Positions 12,702 to 62,402 of a stretch of 64,000 nt of DNA are shown one piece after another. The translations under genes and the position numbers were made by a program. Origin of the DNA: Herpetosiphon geysericola (GTDB taxonomy: Bacteria; Chloroflexota; Chloroflexia; Chloroflexales; Herpetosiphonaceae). The notes beneath the pieces are model-generated. The model made no database searches and was not told where the DNA came from. It saw nothing but the letters and a program-made list of their open reading frames with translations. The stretch covers positions 248,001 to 312,000 of the forward strand of contig NZ_LGKP01000035.1 of assembly GCF_001306135.1 (NCBI RefSeq), read 5' to 3'. Every line of letters begins with the position of its first letter. Positions within the stretch are counted from its first letter, which is position 1.

Positions 12702-12740
12702 GCTGCTCCTTACAAGGGTTGGTTTGTAATCAGCATCGTT

Positions 12741-12808
12741 GCTCACCACCCTTCCGTCCCGCCTCAAGCCGGGAGACGCAGGGGATTAAAGCCCCCTGCA
12801 CCCCCTAA
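12741..12808 (+). repeat. two-hairpin dispersed repeat, copy 1
   Basis: The shared core CACCCTTCCGTCCC is followed by a short GC-rich hairpin, then ACGCAGGGG, and then a second hairpin (GCAGGGG...CCCCTGC) ending CCCCCTAAA. Copies lie at 25741-25790 (opposite strand) and 61029-61096. This copy sits between two convergent genes. Confidence 0.75.
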
Positions 12809-12904
12809 AAAGGCAGTGCGTGGTGGTCAACTATCCAATTAATTAATCCGTTGTGTGCTCCATGGTTATCGCAGAACGCGATTAAAACCAATCTTCAAGG
12901 GGTT

Positions 12905-19461: not shown

Positions 19462-19730
19462 TCAAAGGGCAAAAATCAAAAGGCAGAAATAATTAACGCA
19501 GAGGATTTGAGTTCTTCAAACCTCTGCGCCGCTGCGTTAAAGAATTGATCCACGAAGGACACGAAGGGCACGAAGGGTCAGAAACCGCGAAGATCGCGAA
19601 GGTTAAGTTTTTTCGCCACAGCTTGGTTTGATGATGTTTCTCTGATCGTTCATCCCTCATCCTTCATCCTTCATCCTTTCGTAACTCTGCGCCTCTGCGT
19701 TAATCGTACTTCCCTAAATCATCGATAGCC
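19462..19730. repeat. mosaic intergenic repeat modules
   Basis: This 3' spacer contains, in order: a CAAAAATCAAAAGGC-type module; TTAACGCAGAGG and its inverted partner (19495-19542, a potential hairpin); a 9-nt-period CACGAAGG/GCGAAGAT array (19551-19600); CATCCCTCATCCTT units (19648-19680); and a further inverted CTCTGCGCCTCTGCGTTAA (19686-19704). No reading frame is supported. Confidence 0.8.
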
Positions 19731-20018: not shown

Positions 20019-23000
20019 ATGCTCCAATCCCCTGATCAAGGGCGAACAGTGCAATCGCAGGTTCGTCGTCGTGCATTGGTGCTTAATTTGGCACTCTTGT
20101 TGGCATTATTTGGTCTACCACTTCAACCAACAGCAGCACGCATTGCAGCACCACAGCTTCCTGAAGCCCGTTCTGCCAGCGCACCAACTGCGGTTTGTAC
20201 GGTTACCAACACTAGCGACGCCGCCTCGCCGCCAGCTGGTTCGCTCCGTGCAGCATTGGCCAATGCAACTTGTTCGCCAATTGTATTCGACCCAAGTTTG
20301 GCGGGCCAAACAATCACATTAACCGCCGAATTGAGCGTTGCACGGGTGGTTGTGATCGATGGTGCAGCAGCGCCTGGCCTGAAAATCGATGGCAATAATA
20401 GCGTGCGGTTGTTTAATGTCACGGCCACGAGCGCCAATCTTGCTCTTTACAACTTGACCTTGCAACGTGGTAAAGCCCCAAATACGGGCATTGCCAACGG
20501 TGGCGCTGTGCTCAACCAAGGTGGCACAGTTGTTATTAGCAATACCGCAGTGCTTTCCAACACTGCTGGCACCAGCGGCAATGGCGGTGCAATCCGCAAC
20601 CAACGTACCAGCGGCATTGCTGGTGTATTGCGGGTCTACAATAGCGTGATTATGGGCAATACAGCGCCGAGCAATGGTGGCGCGTTCAGCACCAGCGGTA
20701 GTATCACCACGATTGTTAATAGTGCTGTGTTGAGCAATACGCTCACCAGCACATCTGGCGGCATCACCAGCGGCTCAGGCTTGGGCGCTGGGATTCACCA
20801 CGTTAATATTCAGAATCCCCCAGCCAACTTGACCACCGCAATCACCAACACCACGATTGCCTATAATCGTGGCAAGGCTGGGGCGGCAATTTACAACGAT
20901 AACAATGGCATCATCGATGTTTACTACAGCACAATTGTCTACAATGCTGCTTCGAATAGTAGCGGCTCAATCGTTGGTGGAGTCGTCAACGGGGTTACAA
21001 CTGCTGGCCAGCCTGGCTTACGCCTCAGTTTATATAACACGATTGTGGCCAACAACACTCAACGCGCTGCCAACACAACCTTAACCAGCGCCGATGTTGG
21101 GGTTGGCACTGGCCAAACCATCAGCTCAAATGGCTATAACTTGATTGAAACTGTGCCAAGCGGCGCGGTATTTAGCGGCTCAACCGCCAGCAATATCACT
21201 GGCCAAGACCCTGCAATTGGCGATGTGCAGAACAACGGCGGCGGCACGCCAACCGCAGCTGTGTTACAAAATAGCCCAGCCTATAACGCTGGTGATCCTG
21301 CGCCAATTGGCTTGCCAGCCACCGACCAACGTGGGCCTGGCTTTGTGCGCGTGCGCGAAGGCCGCTTGGATATTGGTGCATTTGAAGCGAGTAACAGCGT
21401 GCAAAGCTCGCCAATTTTAGTTAGCACCAATTTGGATACCAATGATGGAGCGTGTACGACGTTCAATTGTTCGTTGCGCGAAGCAATCACGTTGGCGAAT
21501 AGCACCCCCCAAACCGACACGATTCGCTTTAATCTGCTTGGTAGCGGTGTGCGCACTATCTCGCCAACCGCAGCCTTGCCAGCGATTACGGCGCCAGTAA
21601 TTCTTGATGGCTTGAGCCAAGCTGGCGCTGCATGCAACGCTCCGCTGATCGAATTAAACGGCTCGTTAGCTGGCGCAAACGTCAATGGCCTCGAGGTAAC
21701 TGGCGGCAATAGCCTTATTCGCGGCTTGGTGATCAATCGTTTTACTGGCAATGGCGTGCGCTTGGCAACCCTTGGCGGCAACACGCTTGAATGTAATTTC
21801 ATCGGCACCGATCCTTCGGGCACGGTCGATGCTGGCAATGGCTTGTCGGGCGTGCGGGTCGAATCTGCCAATACGTTAATTGGTGGTAGCAGCGGCTCGA
21901 ATGTCCGCAACTTAATTGCTGGCAACGATGGCGATGGGATTACGCTGGTTGCTGGAGCCAACGCCACAACTATCCAAAATAATTACATTGGCACTAGCCT
22001 GAATAGCAACGCAGCGCTTGGTAATAGCAAGAGCGGCGTGCGCATCGGCAGTGATAACAATCAAGTTGGCGGCGCATTTGGGACACTAGGCAACATTATT
22101 TCTGGCAACGTCGAGCATGGCGTGCTGGTGAATGTTAGCTCAGCGCCATTGGGCAACCGCATTCAAGGCAACTTTATTGGCACCAACATTGGCGCCACCC
22201 TCGATATTGGCAATAGCCAACGTGGGGTCTTTATCGATCGCAGTGCCAATACCTTGGTTGGCGGCACAACCGCTGAACGCAACGTGATCTCTGGCAACAA
22301 CAGCGATGGCGTGGCAATTATTGAGGCTGGCGCAACCAACAATAAAATTTCTGGTAACTATATTGGCACCAACAATGGCGGTGGCTCGGCCTTGGGCAAT
22401 AGCTCTGCTGGGGTTTATATCTTCAATGTTGGCGGCAATACGATTGGTGGCACAACCACCGCTGAGCGCAACTTGATCTCGGCCAATAGCAACGGGATTG
22501 TGATTGGCGGCGGCTCGGCGATTGGCAATATCATCAAAGGTAACTACATTGGTACAACCTTGAATGGTAATGCAGCGCTTGGCAATGTGAGCGATGGCAT
22601 CAAGCTCGACGGCGCGCGCAATACTCAAATTGGTGGCTTGACCATCGGCGAGCGCAACGTCATTTCTGGCAACGGCAATAACGGGATCAACATCTTTACT
22701 ACAAGTTCAGCGGCGAATGTGATTCAAGGGAATTACATTGGCACAAACGCTTTTGTTGCGCCTGCTAGCCCAACCGGGGTCGCCAACCAATTCAACGGCG
22801 TGCGGGTGGCTGCTGGTACAACTACAACCATCGGCGGCTCGGCCCAAGGTGCTGGCAATGTGATTGCCTTCAACGCCAAAAATGGGGTGCTGATTACCCA
22901 AGGTTCGGCAGTTGCCACGACCCAACGGATTCAGCGCAACAGCATTTTTAGCAACAATCGCTTGGGCATTGACCTTGGCCCTGATAATAATGCTAATGGC

Positions 23001-25412
23001 GATGGCGTAACCGCCAATGATGCCAACGACAGCGATACCGGGCCAAACAACTTGCTCAACTATCCAATTGTCGAATCGACCAGCTCTGGTGGTGGCTTGA
23101 CTCAAATTGTGGGCTCGTATATTGGTGCACCAAATGCGGCCTTGACCCTTGATTTCTATGGTCAAGGCGCGTGCGACCCCAGCAACTTTGGCGAAGGTCA
23201 AACCTACATTGGCTCATACGCTATCAACACTGGGGCAACGGGCGCAATTTCCTACACCGCTAATTTGACCACGACTGTAGCTTTGGGCCAACGCGTGACT
23301 GCAACTGCGGTTGATGCCAACGGCAACACCTCGGAATTCTCACGCTGTTCGTCGGTTGGCAACTTGCCAAGCGTCAGCGTCAACGATGTAACGGTGGTCG
23401 AAGGCAATAGCGGCACGACCAACTTGAACTTTACCCTGAGTTTATCGGCGGTCAGTGCTAGCCCAGTGGTTGTCAGCTATGTAACCGCTGATGATACAGC
23501 GATTGCGCCAGCAGATTACACCGCTGCCAGCAGCACTGCCACGATTCCAGCCAATAGCTTGAGTGTGCCAGTTACAATTGAAGTTCATGGCGATACTCAA
23601 TTTGAACTCAACGAACGCTTCTTTATCAATTTGTTGAGCGCCACCAACGCGGCGATTGGCGATGGCCAAGGCATTGGCTCAATTACCAACGACGATAGCG
23701 CGCCAACAATTAGTGTGAATCCAGCCAGCGCCAATGAAGGCAGCGGTACGCCTGGCCAAATCAGCGTGCCTGTTACGCTTTCGAATGCCAGTTACTTGCC
23801 AATTAGCGTTGAATTTGTGACCAGCGATGGCACGGCGAGCGCTCCCAGCGACTACACCACAATTACGGGTACGCTTAATTTTGCCCCAGGCGAAACTAGC
23901 AAAACCATTGATATTGCCATCGTTGGCGATTTGATCGATGAGCTAGATGAAACGATCAACGTGGCGCTGAGCAATGCAGTCAACACCACGATTAGCAACG
24001 ATGAAGCAGTTGCCACGATTCTCGACGACGATGCAACGCCAGTGATCACTATTGCGAATGGCGAAGTGAGCGAAGGCAACAGCGGCAGCGTAACCGTGAC
24101 CCTCAACCTGAGCCTGAGCAACCCAAGCAGCAGCGTGATCACGGTTGATTATGCAACCGTTGCTGGCTCTGCAACCGCCAATGTTGATTTTACGACCAGC
24201 AATGGCTCGCTGAGCTTTGCCCCAGGCGAAACCAGCAAAACCATCGATGTCCAAGTGTTGGGCGATGTGCTTGACGAAGCTGACGAATCGTTTAGCGTGG
24301 AATTGAGCAATCCAACCAATGCCACTGCTGGCAGCGCTGGCACAGTCGTGATTCTTGATGATGATGCAGCGCCAATGCTCGATATTACTGGCTTCCCAGT
24401 GCTTGAAGGTAATACTGGCAGCAAGCCTTTGACCGTGACGGCGACGCTTTCGGCAGTCAGCGGCCAAGTTGTGACCGTGCATTACGCCACCTTCGACAAC
24501 ACTGCAACCGCTGGCAGCGACTATATGGCGATCAGCGGAACCTTGACGATTCCCGCAGGTCAATTGAGCCAAAACATTTTTGTGAATGTTAATGGCGATC
24601 TGATCGACGAAAGCAACGAAACCTTTACGATCACTGCCAGCAACCCGCAAAATGCGAGCTTGTTGAACTCCAATGCAATTGGCACGATTCTCGATGACGA
24701 TGGTGCGCCAACGATCAACGCCAACGCCATCAGCGTCCCCGAAGGCGATGCCAACAGCGTCAATGCAACCTTCAATGTCAGCCTATCCAACCCTAGCGCA
24801 ACCGCTGTTACCGTCAACTATTCAACCACAGCGGGCACAGCAACTAGCGGCACCGACTTTACGCCAACTGCTGGCACGTTAAACTTTGCGCCAGGCGAAT
24901 TGACCAAAACGGTAACCGTCGTAGTGCTTGGCGATCTCTTGGATGAGGCCGATGAAAGCTTTACCCTTGTGCTGAGCAGCGCAACTGGCGGCGCAACCAT
25001 CGGCACATCTGGCACAGCCACAATTGTTGATAACGACCCAACGCCAAGTGTGGCTTTGAGCGGCCTCAACAGCGTGATTGAAGGCAGTGGCATCACCACA
25101 ACCTTAAAATTCACCGTGACGCTTTCGACGGCCAGCGGTCGGGCAAGCAGTGTACAAGTAGCCACCACTGCGGGCACTGCCAGCGCTGGCAGCGACTTCG
25201 TTGGCCAAAATCTGACTCTCAACTTTGCTGCTGGCGAAACCCAAAAAGTGGTCAGCATTGCAATTGTTGGCGATCGGGTTAAAGAGCCAAACGAAACCTT
25301 TAGCGTTGGGCTGAGCAACCCAAGCAACCTCACGCTTGGCACAGCCAGCATCGAAGTCACGATTATCGATGACGATGAATGGATGGTCTATTTGCCATAC
25401 GTGGTCAAATAA
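20019..25412 (+). CDS. giant secreted beta-helix / Calx-beta surface protein
   Basis: A 1797-residue secreted protein with a signal peptide at about 1-41 (RRR then a Leu-rich core). Residues 55-470 form a first right-handed beta-helix that opens with SLRAAL. Residues about 480-1000 form a second, opening with CSLREAITLAN and built from NosD-like turns such as NVISGN, GNYIGT, ALGNS and IGGTT. Six Calx-beta domains of about 112 residues follow (about 1118-1790). Each begins near an EG(N/S)SG motif and ends in a DDD/NDD linker, so they could bind calcium. The chain ends WMVYLPYVVK, a tail shared with another secreted protein here. It probably acts as an adhesin or matrix protein on the filament surface. 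Confidence 0.9.
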   Translation: MLQSPDQGRTVQSQVRRRALVLNLALLLALFGLPLQPTAARIAAPQLPEARSASAPTAVCTVTNTSDAASPPAGSLRAALANATCSPIVFDPSLAGQTITLTAELSVARVVVIDGAAAPGLKIDGNNSVRLFNVTATSANLALYNLTLQRGKAPNTGIANGGAVLNQGGTVVISNTAVLSNTAGTSGNGGAIRNQRTSGIAGVLRVYNSVIMGNTAPSNGGAFSTSGSITTIVNSAVLSNTLTSTSGGITSGSGLGAGIHHVNIQNPPANLTTAITNTTIAYNRGKAGAAIYNDNNGIIDVYYSTIVYNAASNSSGSIVGGVVNGVTTAGQPGLRLSLYNTIVANNTQRAANTTLTSADVGVGTGQTISSNGYNLIETVPSGAVFSGSTASNITGQDPAIGDVQNNGGGTPTAAVLQNSPAYNAGDPAPIGLPATDQRGPGFVRVREGRLDIGAFEASNSVQSSPILVSTNLDTNDGACTTFNCSLREAITLANSTPQTDTIRFNLLGSGVRTISPTAALPAITAPVILDGLSQAGAACNAPLIELNGSLAGANVNGLEVTGGNSLIRGLVINRFTGNGVRLATLGGNTLECNFIGTDPSGTVDAGNGLSGVRVESANTLIGGSSGSNVRNLIAGNDGDGITLVAGANATTIQNNYIGTSLNSNAALGNSKSGVRIGSDNNQVGGAFGTLGNIISGNVEHGVLVNVSSAPLGNRIQGNFIGTNIGATLDIGNSQRGVFIDRSANTLVGGTTAERNVISGNNSDGVAIIEAGATNNKISGNYIGTNNGGGSALGNSSAGVYIFNVGGNTIGGTTTAERNLISANSNGIVIGGGSAIGNIIKGNYIGTTLNGNAALGNVSDGIKLDGARNTQIGGLTIGERNVISGNGNNGINIFTTSSAANVIQGNYIGTNAFVAPASPTGVANQFNGVRVAAGTTTTIGGSAQGAGNVIAFNAKNGVLITQGSAVATTQRIQRNSIFSNNRLGIDLGPDNNANGDGVTANDANDSDTGPNNLLNYPIVESTSSGGGLTQIVGSYIGAPNAALTLDFYGQGACDPSNFGEGQTYIGSYAINTGATGAISYTANLTTTVALGQRVTATAVDANGNTSEFSRCSSVGNLPSVSVNDVTVVEGNSGTTNLNFTLSLSAVSASPVVVSYVTADDTAIAPADYTAASSTATIPANSLSVPVTIEVHGDTQFELNERFFINLLSATNAAIGDGQGIGSITNDDSAPTISVNPASANEGSGTPGQISVPVTLSNASYLPISVEFVTSDGTASAPSDYTTITGTLNFAPGETSKTIDIAIVGDLIDELDETINVALSNAVNTTISNDEAVATILDDDATPVITIANGEVSEGNSGSVTVTLNLSLSNPSSSVITVDYATVAGSATANVDFTTSNGSLSFAPGETSKTIDVQVLGDVLDEADESFSVELSNPTNATAGSAGTVVILDDDAAPMLDITGFPVLEGNTGSKPLTVTATLSAVSGQVVTVHYATFDNTATAGSDYMAISGTLTIPAGQLSQNIFVNVNGDLIDESNETFTITASNPQNASLLNSNAIGTILDDDGAPTINANAISVPEGDANSVNATFNVSLSNPSATAVTVNYSTTAGTATSGTDFTPTAGTLNFAPGELTKTVTVVVLGDLLDEADESFTLVLSSATGGATIGTSGTATIVDNDPTPSVALSGLNSVIEGSGITTTLKFTVTLSTASGRASSVQVATTAGTASAGSDFVGQNLTLNFAAGETQKVVSIAIVGDRVKEPNETFSVGLSNPSNLTLGTASIEVTIIDDDEWMVYLPYVVK

Positions 25413-40330: not shown

Positions 40331-40515
40331 TTGGGGATTCGGTTGTTGGAGGTTGGGCATCAGGGGCTGGGTTTTAACGCAGAGGCGCAGAGATTATGCG
40401 TGGCTGAAATACGTGTTGGATTTGGCAAGGGATAATAGGCTAGCAGAAGTTACCGACCTCCAATCCCCGACAACCAAATATTGTTATGTTCTATGCTCTC
40501 TGTTCTATACTCTAA
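40331..40515. repeat. mosaic intergenic repeat modules between lysA and dnaG
   Basis: The spacer contains GGGGATTCGGTTGTTGG, TTTTAACGCAGAGGCGCAGAG (40377-40396), CCAATCCCCGACAACC, and TATGTTCTATGCTCTCTGTTC (40486-40506). No gene is supported. Confidence 0.75.
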
Positions 40516-43689: not shown

Positions 43690-43850
43690 ATTAACCACGA
43701 AGAGCACGAAGAATACGAAGCAATCATCTCTTTGCGCGCTTCGCGTTCTTCGTGGTTAAAAAATCTCGTCGGTTACTCCCAATCCCCAGCCCCCATCAAC
43801 CAATCCCCAATCTATGTTCTATGCTCTTTGTTCTATGCTCTTTTGATGGC
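43690..43850. repeat. mosaic repeat with inverted CGAAG module pair
   Basis: TTAACCACGAAGAGCACGAAG (43690) pairs with CTTCGCGTTCTTCGTGGTTAA (about 43738-43758) to form a long imperfect hairpin 12 bases after the rpoD stop. CCCCAGCCCCC and TATGTTCTATGCTCTTTG modules follow. Confidence 0.8.
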
Positions 43851-46984: not shown

Positions 46985-47265
46985 CAACGAAGATATTTTT
47001 AACCACGAAGAACACGAAGGGACACGAAGCGCCGAAACCGTGAAGATCGCGAAGATCACGAAGAATTCTTTTTTTGCCACAGATTCCCACAGATTTTTTG
47101 GATTATGTTCCTGCTAGCCCAAAGCTCATCCTCTATCCTTATGTTCTATGTTCTTTTCTGCCTTTTGACCTTTGACTTTTAGGGTTCTGTTCCTGCTCCC
47201 CGATAGCCTATAGACTCATTTTTAATTTCTGCCTTCTGCCTTTTGACTTTTGACTTTTGACTTTA
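46985..47265. repeat. mosaic intergenic repeat modules
   Basis: AACCACGAAGAACACGAAGG with GCGAAGATC units (47001-47065), a TTGCCACAGATTCCCACAGA module, TTATGTTCTATGTTC, and two TTCTGCCTTTTGAC/TTTTGAC arrays (47156-47181 and 47227-47264). Confidence 0.75.
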
Positions 47266-47360: not shown

Positions 47361-48665
47361 ATGAACAATGAACATCCGCTGATTACGGCGCGCAATCAAC
47401 GCACCGAATGGTTTTTAGATACGCGCTTTGGCATGTTTATTCATTGGGGCTTGTATGCGATTCCTGCACGTGGCGAGTGGGTGCGCAGCCTTGAGAAAAT
47501 CAGCAACGAAGCTTATCAACCCTATTTTGAGCAATTTAACCCAACCGAGTATCAGCCGCGCGAATGGGCAAAATTGGCCAAGGCTGCTGGGATGCGCTAC
47601 GCCGTGCTCACTGCCAAGCATCACGATGGCTTTTGCCTATTCGATAGCCAACTGACCGAGTATAAATCAACCAACACTCCAGCCAAGCGCGATTTAGTGT
47701 GCGAGTATGTTGAGGCGTTTCGCGCCGAGGGTTTGCAGGTTGGTTTGTATTATTCGTTGCTCGATTGGCATCATCCCGATTATCCAGCTTTTGACGATGA
47801 ATATCACCCAATGCGCGGCAACGAGGCCTATCGCGACCAGCCCCGCGATTTTCAGCGCTACCTCGATTATATGCACGGCCAAATTAAGGAATTGCTGACC
47901 AACTATGGCAAAATTGATATTATGTGGTTTGATTTTTCGTATGGCGAGCTGAGTGGCGAGGCTTGGCGGGCCAGCGAGTTAATTAATCAAGCCCGCGCAA
48001 TCCAGCCGCATTTGATTATTGATAATCGTTTGGCTGCCAGCGGCGAGGGCAACGCAAGCTTTGGCACAGCAACACCCGAAATCTATGCTGGCGATTTTGC
48101 CTGCCCTGAGCAATTGATTCCGCCTGCTGGGTTGGTCGATGCGCTTGGGCGTTCAGTGCCATGGGAAGCCTGCATCACGCTTAATCAGCATTGGGGCTAC
48201 TCGGCCAGCGACCGCGATTTCAAATCGGCACGCCAAGTTGTGCATGGCCTCATCGAGTGTGTCAGCAAAAATGGTAATTTGCTACTGAATGTCGGGCCAG
48301 ATGCCAAAGGCCGCATTCCGCAGGCCTGCCAACAGATTTTACTCGAAGTTGGGACTTGGATGGCTGAGCACAGCGCAAGCATCTATGGCTGTGGTCGTAG
48401 CCAGTTGGAGAAGCCAGAGTGGGGCCGCTACACTCAGCGCGGTTCGACGATCTATGCCCATATCTACGAGCGTGGAATTGGCCCGATTAACTTTCGCGGG
48501 CTGAATGGCAAAGTTAAACGTGCATGCCTGCTCGCCGATCATTCGGAAGTAAAACTTGAACTGCCGTGGATTGCCAAAGATTATACTGACGACCTGTTTT
48601 TGAACTGGCCCTCAGCCAAATTGCCCAATGAAACCGCGACCGTCGTAGCCTTAGAATTAGAATGA
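47361..48665 (+). CDS. alpha-L-fucosidase, GH29
   Basis: A 434-residue retaining fucosidase. The start is ATG 47361 after AAAGGA; a TTG one codon earlier is not needed. Family GH29 signatures are RFGMFIHWGLYAIPARGEWV (about 22-41), TAKHHDGFCLFDS (about 84-96), and DIMWFDFSYGE with the likely nucleophile Asp-191. YSLLDWHHPDYP is also typical. There is no signal peptide, so it would act on imported fucosylated oligosaccharides in the cytoplasm. It is a single-gene unit followed by a perfect module hairpin. Confidence 0.93.
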   Translation: MNNEHPLITARNQRTEWFLDTRFGMFIHWGLYAIPARGEWVRSLEKISNEAYQPYFEQFNPTEYQPREWAKLAKAAGMRYAVLTAKHHDGFCLFDSQLTEYKSTNTPAKRDLVCEYVEAFRAEGLQVGLYYSLLDWHHPDYPAFDDEYHPMRGNEAYRDQPRDFQRYLDYMHGQIKELLTNYGKIDIMWFDFSYGELSGEAWRASELINQARAIQPHLIIDNRLAASGEGNASFGTATPEIYAGDFACPEQLIPPAGLVDALGRSVPWEACITLNQHWGYSASDRDFKSARQVVHGLIECVSKNGNLLLNVGPDAKGRIPQACQQILLEVGTWMAEHSASIYGCGRSQLEKPEWGRYTQRGSTIYAHIYERGIGPINFRGLNGKVKRACLLADHSEVKLELPWIAKDYTDDLFLNWPSAKLPNETATVVALELE

Positions 48666-48671
48666 ACCATT

Positions 48672-48728
48672 TTTAACGCAGAGGCGCAGAGAACCAAAAA
48701 CTTATTTTCTCTGCGCCTCTGCGTTAAA
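48672..48728. repeat. perfect inverted pair of the ACGCAGAGGCGCAGAG module
   Basis: The 22-base arms 48672-48693 and 48707-48728 are exact reverse complements around a 13-base loop. The hairpin lies seven bases after the fucosidase stop and before the convergent xseB end. No T-run follows on either strand. Confidence 0.9.
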
Positions 48729-48765
48729 TCATAACCTCTAAACCCTAGCCCCTGAGCCCTAGTTC

Positions 48766-50119: not shown

Positions 50120-50650
50120 AGACCAGAACAGAGAGCATAGAACAGAGAGCATAGAACATAAGCGAAGGATGAGGGATGAGGGATGAGGGATGAAAAGCAG
50201 AAGTCAAAAGGCAAAATGGGAAGCCGAATTATGGGCTAGAGGGCAGTATTTTAACGCAGAGGCGCAGAGAATGAGAGGCTATGGGCTATGGGCTTTTGGC
50301 TATCGGAATATTATTTGGGGAGAAAAAGGATTTGTATTTAACGCAGAGAAATAATGGCTATAAGCTATAGGCTTTTGGCTATCGGAATATTATTTGGGGA
50401 GAAAAAGGATTTGTATTTAACGCAGAGGCGCAGAGGAACGATGGCTATGGGCTATGGGAATTTAATCTGAGCAATCTGTGGCTAAAAATTATTCTTCGTA
50501 GCTCAATAGTTAAGCGTATCGCTAAATTGCTATGTTCTTTGCTCTCTGTTCTTCGTACCCTTCGCGATCTTCGCGATCTTCGCCGTTAAATTCCTATGCT
50601 CTATGCTCTTTGCTCTATGTTCTGGCTTTCATCCCTCATCCTTCATCCTT
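50120..50650. repeat. large mosaic intergenic repeat block
   Basis: The block contains AGAACAGAGAGCATAG units (50122-50160), GATGAGGGATGAGG units (50166-50190), CAAAAGGCAAAA, TTAACGCAGAGGCGCAGAG (50251), GCTATGGGCTATGGG units, CTTCGCGATCTTCGCGATC (50568) and TATGCTCTATGCTCTTTG (50597). Inside it a 58-base string is repeated exactly at 50291-50348 and 50370-50427. No gene is supported in the 650 bases. Confidence 0.85.
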
Positions 50651-50692
50651 AAAAAAACACCCCAGCCCTGAGCACATGCCAGAACTGGGGTG
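50651..50692 (-). terminator. intrinsic terminator of korAB
   Basis: CACCCCAG (50658-50665) pairs with CTGGGGTG (50685-50692); on the minus strand the stem is followed by seven T (A-run 50651-50657 on plus). Confidence 0.85.
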
Positions 50693-54039: not shown

Positions 54040-54364
54040 AGTAGCAAATAAAGGCAAAAGTCAGAAGGCAAAAATCAAAATAGCAGCCAGAGGAATTGAT
54101 AAGGATTAATTGATCCAGGAAGGGCCACGAAGGACACGAAGAACGCGAAGGTATGTTTAGCCACAGCTTGGCACAGATTCGGAGAATTAGGCTTTTAACT
54201 TCATCCCTCATCCCTCATCCTTCATAATTTCGTGGCTCTGCGCCTCTGCGGTAAAAGCGAGCCTTTTTAGCCACCAAATACTATTCCGATAGCCTCGTCC
54301 CTGCTTCCTGACCCCTAGCCCCTGAATCCTCAATAACTATGCTCTATGCTCTTTGTTCTATGTT
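54040..54364. repeat. mosaic intergenic repeat modules
   Basis: AAAGTCAGAAGGCAAAAATC (54058), CCACGAAGGACACGAAGAACGCGAAGG units (54124-54150), GCCACAGCTTGGCACAGATT, CATCCCTCATCCCTCATCC (54203), CTCTGCGCCTCTGCGG (54235), CCCCTAGCCCCTGAA and TATGCTCTATGCTCTTTG (54339). The last module runs into the Uma2 stop codon. Confidence 0.78.
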
Positions 54365-54928
54365 CTAAATTTTGGCATAAACTTCTTGCACCGTAAGCAT
54401 ACATTGAATTGAGCGTAATTCCAGCACCGCTTGCGGATCGTTGATTTCGCTTAAAAGCCATTGATTGGCTGCCTGACGACTATAATGCTCAATATGATAG
54501 GGATCTTGCGAAACTAAGAGATATTCGCGTAACGATGGAATTTGGCGATAATGCTGAAATTTTCGGCCCCGGTCATAGTGCTCAGTTGAGGGTGAAAGCA
54601 CTTCAATAATCAGCGTGGGGTTGAGCAAGGTATCTTGATGGCTATCGTCAAACCAGGTTTCGCCACACACAACCGAGACATCAGGATAGGTATACAAGCC
54701 TGTAGCCGAGATTTTGATGCGGAGATCGCTGGGGAAAACTGTACAAGAACGTTGCTTTAACTGGCTATGCAATTCAGCAATCAAATTGGCCACAATCAGA
54801 TTATGGTTGCGGCTCGCGCCAGCCAAGGCATAAACCAGCCCATTCAAAAATTCATGTTTGGTAGGGCTGGTTCGCTCACCAGCCAAATATTCCTCAATTG
54901 TCATTGGGCTAATTGATTCGGCACTCAT
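54365..54928 (-). CDS. Uma2 family (DUF820) putative restriction-like nuclease
   Basis: A 187-residue protein of the widespread Uma2 family, which has a PD-(D/E)xK nuclease-like core. Visible are MTIEEYLAGERTSPTKHEFLNGLVY, FPSDLRIKI, YPDVSVVCG and LIIEVLSPSTEHYDRGRK, which supply the Asp, Glu and Lys of the core. I favour the ATG at 54928; an in-frame ATG at 54967 is possible but has no ribosome-binding site. The family's biological role is unsettled. The stop TAG comes from the adjoining repeat module. Confidence 0.85.
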   Translation of the reverse strand: MSAESISPMTIEEYLAGERTSPTKHEFLNGLVYALAGASRNHNLIVANLIAELHSQLKQRSCTVFPSDLRIKISATGLYTYPDVSVVCGETWFDDSHQDTLLNPTLIIEVLSPSTEHYDRGRKFQHYRQIPSLREYLLVSQDPYHIEHYSRQAANQWLLSEINDPQAVLELRSIQCMLTVQEVYAKI

Positions 54929-55004: not shown

Positions 55005-55185
55005 AGGCTTGATCCACGAAGAACACGAAGTTACACGAAGGTTTAAACCGCGAAGGGCGCAAAGAGCACGAAGTAACTGATCGTAGCGATCCTTCGCGCT
55101 CTTCGCGGTTAAAAATGTAGTTCCTAATCTCTCCTGCATGCCTCTCGTCTAATATTCTGACTTTTGACTTTTGACTTTTGACCTA
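55005..55185. repeat. mosaic repeat with inverted CGAAG module pair
   Basis: CCACGAAGAACACGAAG (55013), AACCGCGAAGGGCGC (55046) and its inverted partner GCGCTCTTCGCGGTT (55098), giving a long hairpin. TTTTGACTTTTGACTTTTGAC (55159) follows. Confidence 0.78.
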
Positions 55186-56387: not shown

Positions 56388-56613
56388 ATCCACGAAGGAT
56401 ACGAAGGGTTGAAACCGCGAAGAACACGAAGGGTATATTTAGCCACGAATTGCACGAATTGCACGAATAATCATTTTTTAGCCACAGATTACACAGATTA
56501 GCTTGATTTTGATGCTCCACCCCAAAAGCCCATAGCCAACAGCCCATAGCCATCGGTTCTTTGCGCCGCTGCGTTAACTATTTTGACTTTTGATTTCTGC
56601 CTTTTGACTTTGT
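56388..56613. repeat. mosaic repeat modules entering the oxyR 3' end
   Basis: ATCCACGAAGGATACGAAGG and CGCGAAGAACACGAAGGG (56388-56430), CCACGAATTGCACGAATTGC (56443), CCACAGATTACACAGATT (56481), AGCCCATAGCCAACAGCC, GCGCCGCTGCGTTAA and TTTTGACTTTTGATTTCTGCC (56581). The last lies inside the oxyR reading frame. Confidence 0.8.
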
Positions 56614-59114: not shown

Positions 59115-59132
59115 GTAGCCTGTGTTGAGTTT

Positions 59133-59374
59133 TCAACGCAGCGGCGCAGAGGGTTAAAGTTTAGGCTCTTGGCTGAAGTAGCGGCAAATCTACCAAGCCA
59201 AGAGCCTTTTGATCCACGAAGGGCTGAAACCGCGAAGAACACGAAGCGCACGAAGGGCTGAAACCGCGAAGAACACGAAAGGCGCGAAGGTTAAGTTTTT
59301 AGCCACGAATTCCACGAATTATTTAATTTCATCCCTCATCCTTTATTTGTTCTATGCTCTCTGTTCTATGTTCT
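59133..59374. repeat. mosaic repeat modules around the catalase terminator
   Basis: CAACGCAGCGGCGCAGAGG (59135), the terminator, then GATCCACGAAGGGCTGAAACCGCGAAG units (59211-59290), CCACGAATTCCACGAATT (59303), CATCCCTCATCC (59331) and TATGCTCTCTGTTCTATGTTC (59352). The last lies inside the 3' end of the membrane-protein gene. Confidence 0.78.
59164..59211 (+). terminator. intrinsic terminator after catalase
   Basis: Eleven-base perfect arms 59164-59174 and 59196-59206 enclose an inner GTAG/CTAC stem and are followed by TTTT. Confidence 0.85.
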
Positions 59375-61335: not shown

Positions 61336-62340
61336 ATGGATTACAAGGATTACTACACGATTCTTGGAGTAACAAAAACTGCAACCGAAGCTGAAATCAA
61401 AAAAGCCTATCGGAAATTGGCGCGTCAATATCACCCAGACCTCAATCCCGGCGATTCTGAAGCTGAACGTAAATTCAAAGAAATCAACGAAGCCTATGAG
61501 GTAGTGTCGGACAAAGACAAGCGAGAGAAGTACGATCGCTTCGGTGCCGATTGGGGACGCGCCCAAAGTACAGGTTCGGGGTTTAATTGGAATCAATACG
61601 CCTCGCAACCAGGTGGTTTTGGTAGCAACTTTGGCGGCGATTTCGCCAACGGTGAGTTCTCCGATTTTTTCGAGATGTTGTTCGGCAATGCCAGCCGCCG
61701 CCAAACCAGCGGGGTCTATGGCAATCGCCGACCACAACGCGGCCAAAATGTTGAGCAAGCCATTGATGTTACTTTAGCTGAAGTGCTCAGTGGAACCCAA
61801 CGCACGATTCAATTACAAGCGCCCGAAATGTGTAGCAGTTGTGGTGGCAGTGGGGCTAGCCGTGGTAGTATTTGCCCAACCTGTGGCGGTACTGGTGTTA
61901 GCGGCACAAGCACCCGCACCATCAACGTGCGCATTCCCGCCGGGGTCGATCAAGGGTCGCGCATTCGCGTTGCTGGCGAAGGCAGCCCTGGCATCGATCA
62001 AGGCAAACGTGGCGATTTGATGTTGGTGGTCAATCTCGTGCCCGATAGCCGCTTCGAGCGTAAAGGCAACGATTTACATACCGATCTCGCAGTCGATTGG
62101 CATACCCTCATCCTTGGTGGCAAAATAAAAGTCCCATTGCCTGATGGGAAGCAATTAACATTGACGGTGCCTGAACAGACCCAAAATGCCAAGGTGTTTC
62201 GTTTGCGCGGCCAAGGCGTGCCCAACCTGCGCGACCAAAACACTCGCGGCGATTTGCTGGTCAAAGTTCAGGCAGTGCTACCAACTAGCCTGACTCCCAA
62301 ACAGCGCGAATTGGTGATGGCTCTACGGGATAGCGAATAA
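61336..62340 (+). CDS. DnaJ/CbpA-type co-chaperone with half zinc finger
   Basis: A 334-residue J-domain protein that would stimulate DnaK. The J domain is 1-70 with HPD at 33-35, followed by a Gly/Phe/Asn-rich stretch. A very short Cys region (about 166-187) has only two CxxCxGxG motifs, CSSCGGSG and CPTCGGTG, instead of the four of DnaJ, so it could hold one zinc. The C-terminal substrate-binding domains read [10 protein letters not shown] and [10 protein letters not shown]. It is intermediate between DnaJ and CbpA. A clpC gene follows. Confidence 0.9.
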
Positions 62341-62344
62341 TGTC

Positions 62345-62402
62345 AGAGGGCAAAAATCAAAAGGCAAAAAGTTTTGACTTCTGCCTTTTGACTTTTGATT
62401 TT
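62345..62402. repeat. inverted TTTTGAC-module pair between dnaJ and clpC
   Basis: AAAATCAAAAGGCAAAAAG (62354) is followed by its approximate reverse complement (CTTCTGCCTTTTGAC... to 62402), which gives an A/T-rich imperfect hairpin directly after the dnaJ stop. Confidence 0.7.

Follow-up and report, generated by a model that had tools for sequence, protein, structure and literature searches.

Herpetosiphon is a soil bacterium, and the stretch of its genome analysed here (the window, 64 kb, positions 248001-312000 of contig 12) carries at 48672-48728 a long inverted repeat shortly after a gene. The question raised by this locus is whether such repeats are kept for the RNA stem that they form, as the initial annotation proposed when it suggested selection for structure rather than sequence and, perhaps, protection of mRNA 3' ends, or whether the stem follows from another rule. 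The exact 22-bp stem described there was confirmed: the arms (48672-48693 and 48707-48728, 22 nt each) are 100% complementary over 22/22 bp and enclose a loop of 13. Perfect 22-bp arms with a loop of at most 60 are expected by chance about 2e-7 times per 64 kb, and the RNA fold of 48672-48728 has a predicted energy of -38.9 kcal/mol (z -11.5; shuffles -9.2 +/- 2.6). The stop codon of a predicted gene (TGA, 48663-48665) is followed by six bases, not seven as first counted, and then by the hairpin, which a convergent gene faces from the other side. Intrinsic, T-tailed terminators are likewise stem-loops soon after stops, but the 48672 stem differs in its loop of 13 and in the absence of a T-run on both sides, its tails being TCATAACCTC and AATGGTTCAT. 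A search of the 64-kb window against Rfam gave zero matches, and a literature search of open-access papers with the letters of the repeat found nothing.

The hairpin is built from one of a set of short repeat modules. We analysed about 2.44 Mb of the 6.14-Mb Herpetosiphon genome, calling genes with a purpose-written, simple codon-usage finder in place of a standard annotator, and derived nine module patterns from over-represented words: A (TTTAACGCAGAGGCGCAGAG), B (CACGAAGRNCACGAAG), B2 (CACGAATT), B3 (CACAGATT), C (TTTTGAC/TTCTGCC), D (TTCATCC/CTCATCC), E (TTCTATG/CTCTATG), F (GGCTATG/GGCTTTT) and H (CCCTAGC-like). The 2.44 Mb contain approximately 1,480 modules, almost exclusively intergenic (181/182 for A and 167/172 for D, with B2 as the exception at 130/185), arranged as mosaic blocks with tandem unit periods of 7, 8 and 9 bp (TRF). 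Genome-wide, AACGCAGAGGCGCAGAG with at most one mismatch has 131 forward and 135 reverse matches, against 0 for the reversed control. Reversed controls gave 0-5 matches for most modules, 39 for B2, 35 for F and 198 for H, so that the H counts are the least clean. Module orientation was defined by the purine-rich strand, a label that is nearly arbitrary for B3 and F (purine fractions 0.51 and 0.52). Blocks hold up to 15 modules and have fixed neighbours; for instance, A is followed by F in the same orientation (A>F>) with a gap of 6-8 nt in 53 cases, and A and B face apart, commonly at 7-10 nt, in 46. For A, C, D, B2 and B3, direct copies in one block resemble each other beyond expectation, which fits copying. 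The modules avoid coding DNA and the final 80 nt or so upstream of starts. The blocks and pairs of the window are as follows, none being assigned to a strand:

19462..19703: block of purine-oriented C, a short A pair in inverted order, purine-oriented B arrays, then D and A in pyrimidine orientation
40373..40513: block from A (purine) to E (pyrimidine), within a degenerate H-type long stem
43691..43841: block of the B hairpin 43691-43759, then H and E heptamers
47004..47264: block with divergent genes on either side, purine-oriented B arrays followed by pyrimidine-oriented E, C, F, C
48672..48728: module A (TTTAACGCAGAGGCGCAGAGAA) as a perfect inverted pair of 22 bp with a loop of 13, in a convergent gap, with H-type heptamers after it
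48739..48760: H-type heptamers (CCCTAGCCCCTGAGCCCTAG) in pyrimidine orientation, the right end of the block of the 48672 hairpin (module annotation)
50125..50655: the window's largest block, purine-oriented E D H C A F F A F followed by pyrimidine-oriented B3 E B E D
54047..54367: block of C and B (purine), then D, A, H and E (pyrimidine)
55015..55182: block of the B hairpin 55042-55114, then C heptamers
56390..56573: block of B, B2 and B3 (purine), then F and A (pyrimidine)
59132..59374: block with convergent genes on either side, A before and B/B2/D/E after the conserved native terminator 59163-59206
62351..62402: inverted C-module pair; three relatives have a D-module hairpin at the orthologous position

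Four comparable pairs had been named in the window; all four exist, but every one is imperfect, with arms of about 13-23 nt. They lie at 43691-43759 (arms 21 nt, 90%, z -8.5), 55042-55114 (23 nt, 87%, z -4.6), 62351-62402 (about 17-19 nt, 89-94%, z -5.0) and 19497-19528, where the left arm is a one-unit copy and the pair is weaker (z -3.2). In the block at 50125..50655 the outer D copies pair across about 450 nt in the predicted fold. Inside the same block, window positions 50263-50427 are a 79-bp tandem duplication, 91% identical, that joins A and F modules.

The initial annotation named inverted pairs no commoner than direct ones as the outcome that would refute it, and overall this is what was seen. 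Same-module neighbours less than 50 nt apart comprise 68 direct and 48 inverted pairs (42 purine-first, 6 pyrimidine-first), and up to 400 nt the figures are 247 direct and 131 inverted (121 and 10, respectively); module A alone is the exception, with 0 direct and 7 inverted pairs below 50 nt. The arms do not covary: in B, F, C, E, D and H an arm scores no higher with its own partner than with the arms of other pairs of its family (p 0.06 for A). Blocks in which modules were flipped at random fold better than the real ones (mean z +0.44, n 285), an effect probably owed in part to the shared orientation of B, B2 and B3. At the junction, same-module pairs within 60 nt number 44, close to the 37 expected (p 0.13), and those within 150 nt number 63, a mild excess over the 44 expected (p 0.002). 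The inverted arrangement is far from random, and to that extent the initial annotation is supported, but the covariation, flip and junction tests speak against RNA-stem selection as the driver, which was rejected on the first two. Since direct pairs are commoner, arms do not covary and blocks fold no better, the blocks are not mainly governed by selection for an RNA stem.

Polarity is the main rule. Two or more modules are present in 264 intergenic regions; the first module is purine-type and the last pyrimidine-type in 235 of these, the reverse is seen in none and 29 have like ends. This is unchanged across convergent, tandem and divergent gaps. Same-module pairs within a region are purine-first in 118 cases and pyrimidine-first in 3, and even F, despite its label, gives 23:1. 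Purine-type modules lie closer to the left gene (536:195) and pyrimidine-type modules closer to the right gene (540:190). Consequently, whichever strand is considered, the 5' to 3' direction of the purine-rich copies leads from the flanking gene into the middle of the block. Relative to transcription there is no strand preference save weak trends for C and D, which makes a sequence-specific RNA signal read one way unlikely. Inward polarity is what is kept, and the perfect stem is one of its outcomes; the 48672 stem would arise when the highly conserved A module occupies both halves of a block.

The same polarity is found elsewhere. Four other Herpetosiphon genomes contain 46 purine-first and 0 reverse cases, and B pairs across five Herpetosiphon genomes are purine-first in 18 cases and pyrimidine-first in 0; B-module hairpins were found in none of the other Chloroflexota genomes scanned. 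The exact A hairpin occurs in 23 contigs annotated as Acidobacteriota (Terriglobia), Gammaproteobacteria, Gemmatimonadota, Verrucomicrobia/Lentisphaerae/Kiritimatiellae, Bacteroidota and Chloroflexota. In 13 non-Herpetosiphon genomes from several phyla, each picked for holding one purine-first A hairpin, A (CGCAGAG) pairs give 260 purine-first and 4 pyrimidine-first strand matches, many of which overlap, with two genomes giving most of them and all 4 exceptions lying at one locus. Further pairs at the 23 foreign loci are 6 purine-first and 1 pyrimidine-first. Gemmatimonadota MAGs (L126, L135, L136, L142, L145) have an apparently orthologous intergenic A hairpin with extended arms that differ between genomes, and in one of them the odd unit GCCGAG of one arm has its match in the other. 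One Verrucomicrobia MAG (L128, L131, L138, L143) has several copies of an element that is bounded by terminal inverted repeats (GTGCCTATCCGTTTGGTTG...) and carries the A hairpin within it. In Herpetosiphon, three pyrimidine-first A pairs (C1:45050, C12:220377, C12:488950) have a common spacer, TATCTGTTCG/TGCCTGTTCG, and these rule-breaking pairs are apparently copies of one small element.

Between species, modules are swapped at a given locus while the presence of a block persists. Of 34 orthologous gaps in the window region, 11 have modules in all available species, 1 in some and 22 in none, and module content and order differ even between nearest species. The locus at 62340 has a TTTTGAC stem here and a TTCATCC stem in three relatives, and at 48666 and 43678 the A or B hairpins of this genome are replaced in relatives by folding H-type repeats. 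The earlier suggestion that different modules adopt one hairpin architecture is supported at these orthologous loci (C against D stems, H against A or B), but not as a driving rule. Within the block at 59132..59374, the conserved ordinary terminator at 59163-59206 (GGCTCTTGGC...GCCAAGAGCC) has modules on both sides and a compensatory change in one relative.

The blocks are also placed with respect to gene ends. The first module lies a median of 13 nt past the stop and the last 79 nt ahead of the next start, and at equal gap length (up to about 500 nt) occupancy is highest in convergent and lowest in divergent gaps, 55/267 of which hold blocks. T-tailed terminators within 120 nt past the stop are found at 20/126 convergent ends with modules (16%) compared to 76/146 without (52%, p 2.7e-10), and at 35/174 tandem ends with modules (20%) compared to 227/601 without (38%, p 1.1e-5). 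This deficit is clearest in short gaps, 68% of convergent gaps of 25-60 nt without modules having a T-tailed terminator, and is not significant for convergent gaps above 200 nt or tandem gaps above 400 nt; it could arise because blocks settle at ends that lack terminators or because they destroy them. Strong local folds occur at 40% of convergent ends with modules, 74% of those without and 10-17% of divergent gaps. Ordinary hairpins of the same genome have no purine-first bias (95 vs 87), which indicates that purine-first order is not a general feature of terminators. The genome encodes Rho.

We tentatively favour, at somewhat less than an even chance, an explanation drawn from sequence in which the blocks are mosaics, their modules exchanged by ectopic copying, and their polarity is maintained by a direction-neutral 3'-end (termination) function. 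We infer both the exchange, by copying and recombination between blocks, and the 3'-end function. The blocks would be rapidly remodelled 3'-end elements that work in either direction: either transcript would reach a purine-rich stretch first and a pyrimidine-rich stretch second, and the latter may form a weak RNA-DNA hybrid, pair back with the first half or remain free for Rho. Polarity, fixed adjacency, the likeness of direct copies, the persistence of blocks, their closeness to stops, the terminator deficit, the presence of Rho and the transcript starts and stops at G4-forming heptamer repeats of Xanthomonas support this explanation. Blocks in divergent gaps, which call for no terminator, speak against a pure terminator role. 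The native terminator inside the block at 59132..59374 and the loss of significance of the deficit in long gaps count against the 3'-end reading too.

Because of these divergent-gap blocks and the unbiased ordinary hairpins, a neutral origin is nearly as likely, and we regard it as a serious possibility. The repeats would then be selfish DNA that settles where it is harmless, with polarity as the footprint of block growth, either because purine-strand repeats grew inward from both sides of a break by 5' to 3' extension or copying or because one ancestral polar block was inherited by ectopic conversion. This agrees with the independence of polarity from gene orientation, gene starts and gene ends, with pair arms that look like independent draws from a family, with the avoidance of coding DNA and of the last 80 nt or so before starts, with the rapid turnover and with the polarity seen in other phyla; pure neutrality, however, predicts neither the terminator deficit at convergent gene ends nor the persistence of blocks at loci where their content changes. 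A selected RNA stem-loop protecting mRNA 3' ends after genes is unlikely. The stability of the 48672 stem, the stem kept at 62340 in relatives with a different module and the modest surplus of same-module pairs within 150 nt speak for it, but besides the lack of covariation, the folding below that of random flips and the majority of direct pairs, strong hairpins are fewer at module-bearing convergent ends, and divergent gaps, with no mRNA 3' end to protect, hold blocks as well, so this part of the initial annotation is not supported.

Very unlikely, in our estimate, are mobile hairpins of the REPIN or MITE kind, i.e. units of two inverted arms mobilised in trans and nesting in older copies. 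The blocks do look nested, the spacer common to the three pyrimidine-first A pairs resembles copies of one unit, and the Verrucomicrobia element carries its A hairpin between terminal repeats. Neither terminal inverted repeats nor target duplications were recognised in Herpetosiphon blocks. Against mobile hairpins, most modules stand outside same-module inverted pairs (116/295 regions hold one), pairs show no conservation of arms plus spacer as a unit and vary in gap, no empty-site insertions were seen in the compared region, and the genome's only match to a Y1 transposase (Y1_Tnp) has an in-frame TGA. A further, likewise very unlikely, reading is that the inward polarity, which recurs with nearly the same repeat words in several phyla, records a common mode of DNA synthesis: repeats would be added or copied, in a telomere-like, templated manner, onto the 3' ends flanking intergenic breaks and then joined, which would yield purine-first blocks with two independent halves.

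Among known systems, the closest are the heptameric, G-rich intergenic repeats of Xanthomonas (GGGAATC) and Nostoc (GGGGA(C/T)T), one type per genome, which have been read as quadruplexes and lie less than 50 nt from the stop on the coding strand or from the start on the non-coding strand (PMC4692102). Related species keep them in the same gene gaps while their content varies, some are inverted, and in Xanthomonas transcript starts and stops are more frequent at those heptamer repeats that form G4 (PMC4692102). The positional polarity has already been described for them, in different terms (PMC4692102): as here, the purine- or G-rich strand points inward whatever the gene direction, in intergenic tandem units of 6-9 nt, and our H module looks similar in sequence. 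Unlike them, the Herpetosiphon repeats comprise at least nine modules with periods of 7-9, a fixed grammar, mostly no G-tracts and a terminator deficit. The TAACTGA repeats of Beggiatoaceae, Cyanobacteria and Bacteroidetes are also of short period, intergenic, common to distant phyla and without a known carrier, but they are direct and mostly just upstream of start codons, with one inverted case in the BOGUAY genome (PMC4679880). REPINs, inverted REP doublets, share the extragenic hairpins and the clusters (PMC3116915); they differ in having palindromic REPs, an adjacent RAYT gene and doublets conserved as units (PMC3116915), none of which was encountered here. Doublet dominance, a RAYT (Y1) gene and conservation of arms and spacing were all absent, and a RAYT/REPIN origin was rejected as the Y1 gene is not intact. 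The closest published study left the function of short-period intergenic repeats open (PMC4692102). The 235:0 polarity, the swapping of modules at fixed loci and the lack of terminators make two questions testable, namely whether transcripts end at the blocks and what imposes the direction of the blocks, and as the same inverted module is purine-first in several phyla, the answer would not be limited to one genus.

Other repeats were also observed in the window. The large gene at 20019-25412 has internal repeats of about 336 bp (window 23670-25302). The convergent gap at 12702-12904 holds another repeat family (CCCTTCCGTCCCGCC, CCCCCTGCACCCCC), and at that position the nearest species has a different large inverted repeat of the CCCCTC/GAGGGG type.
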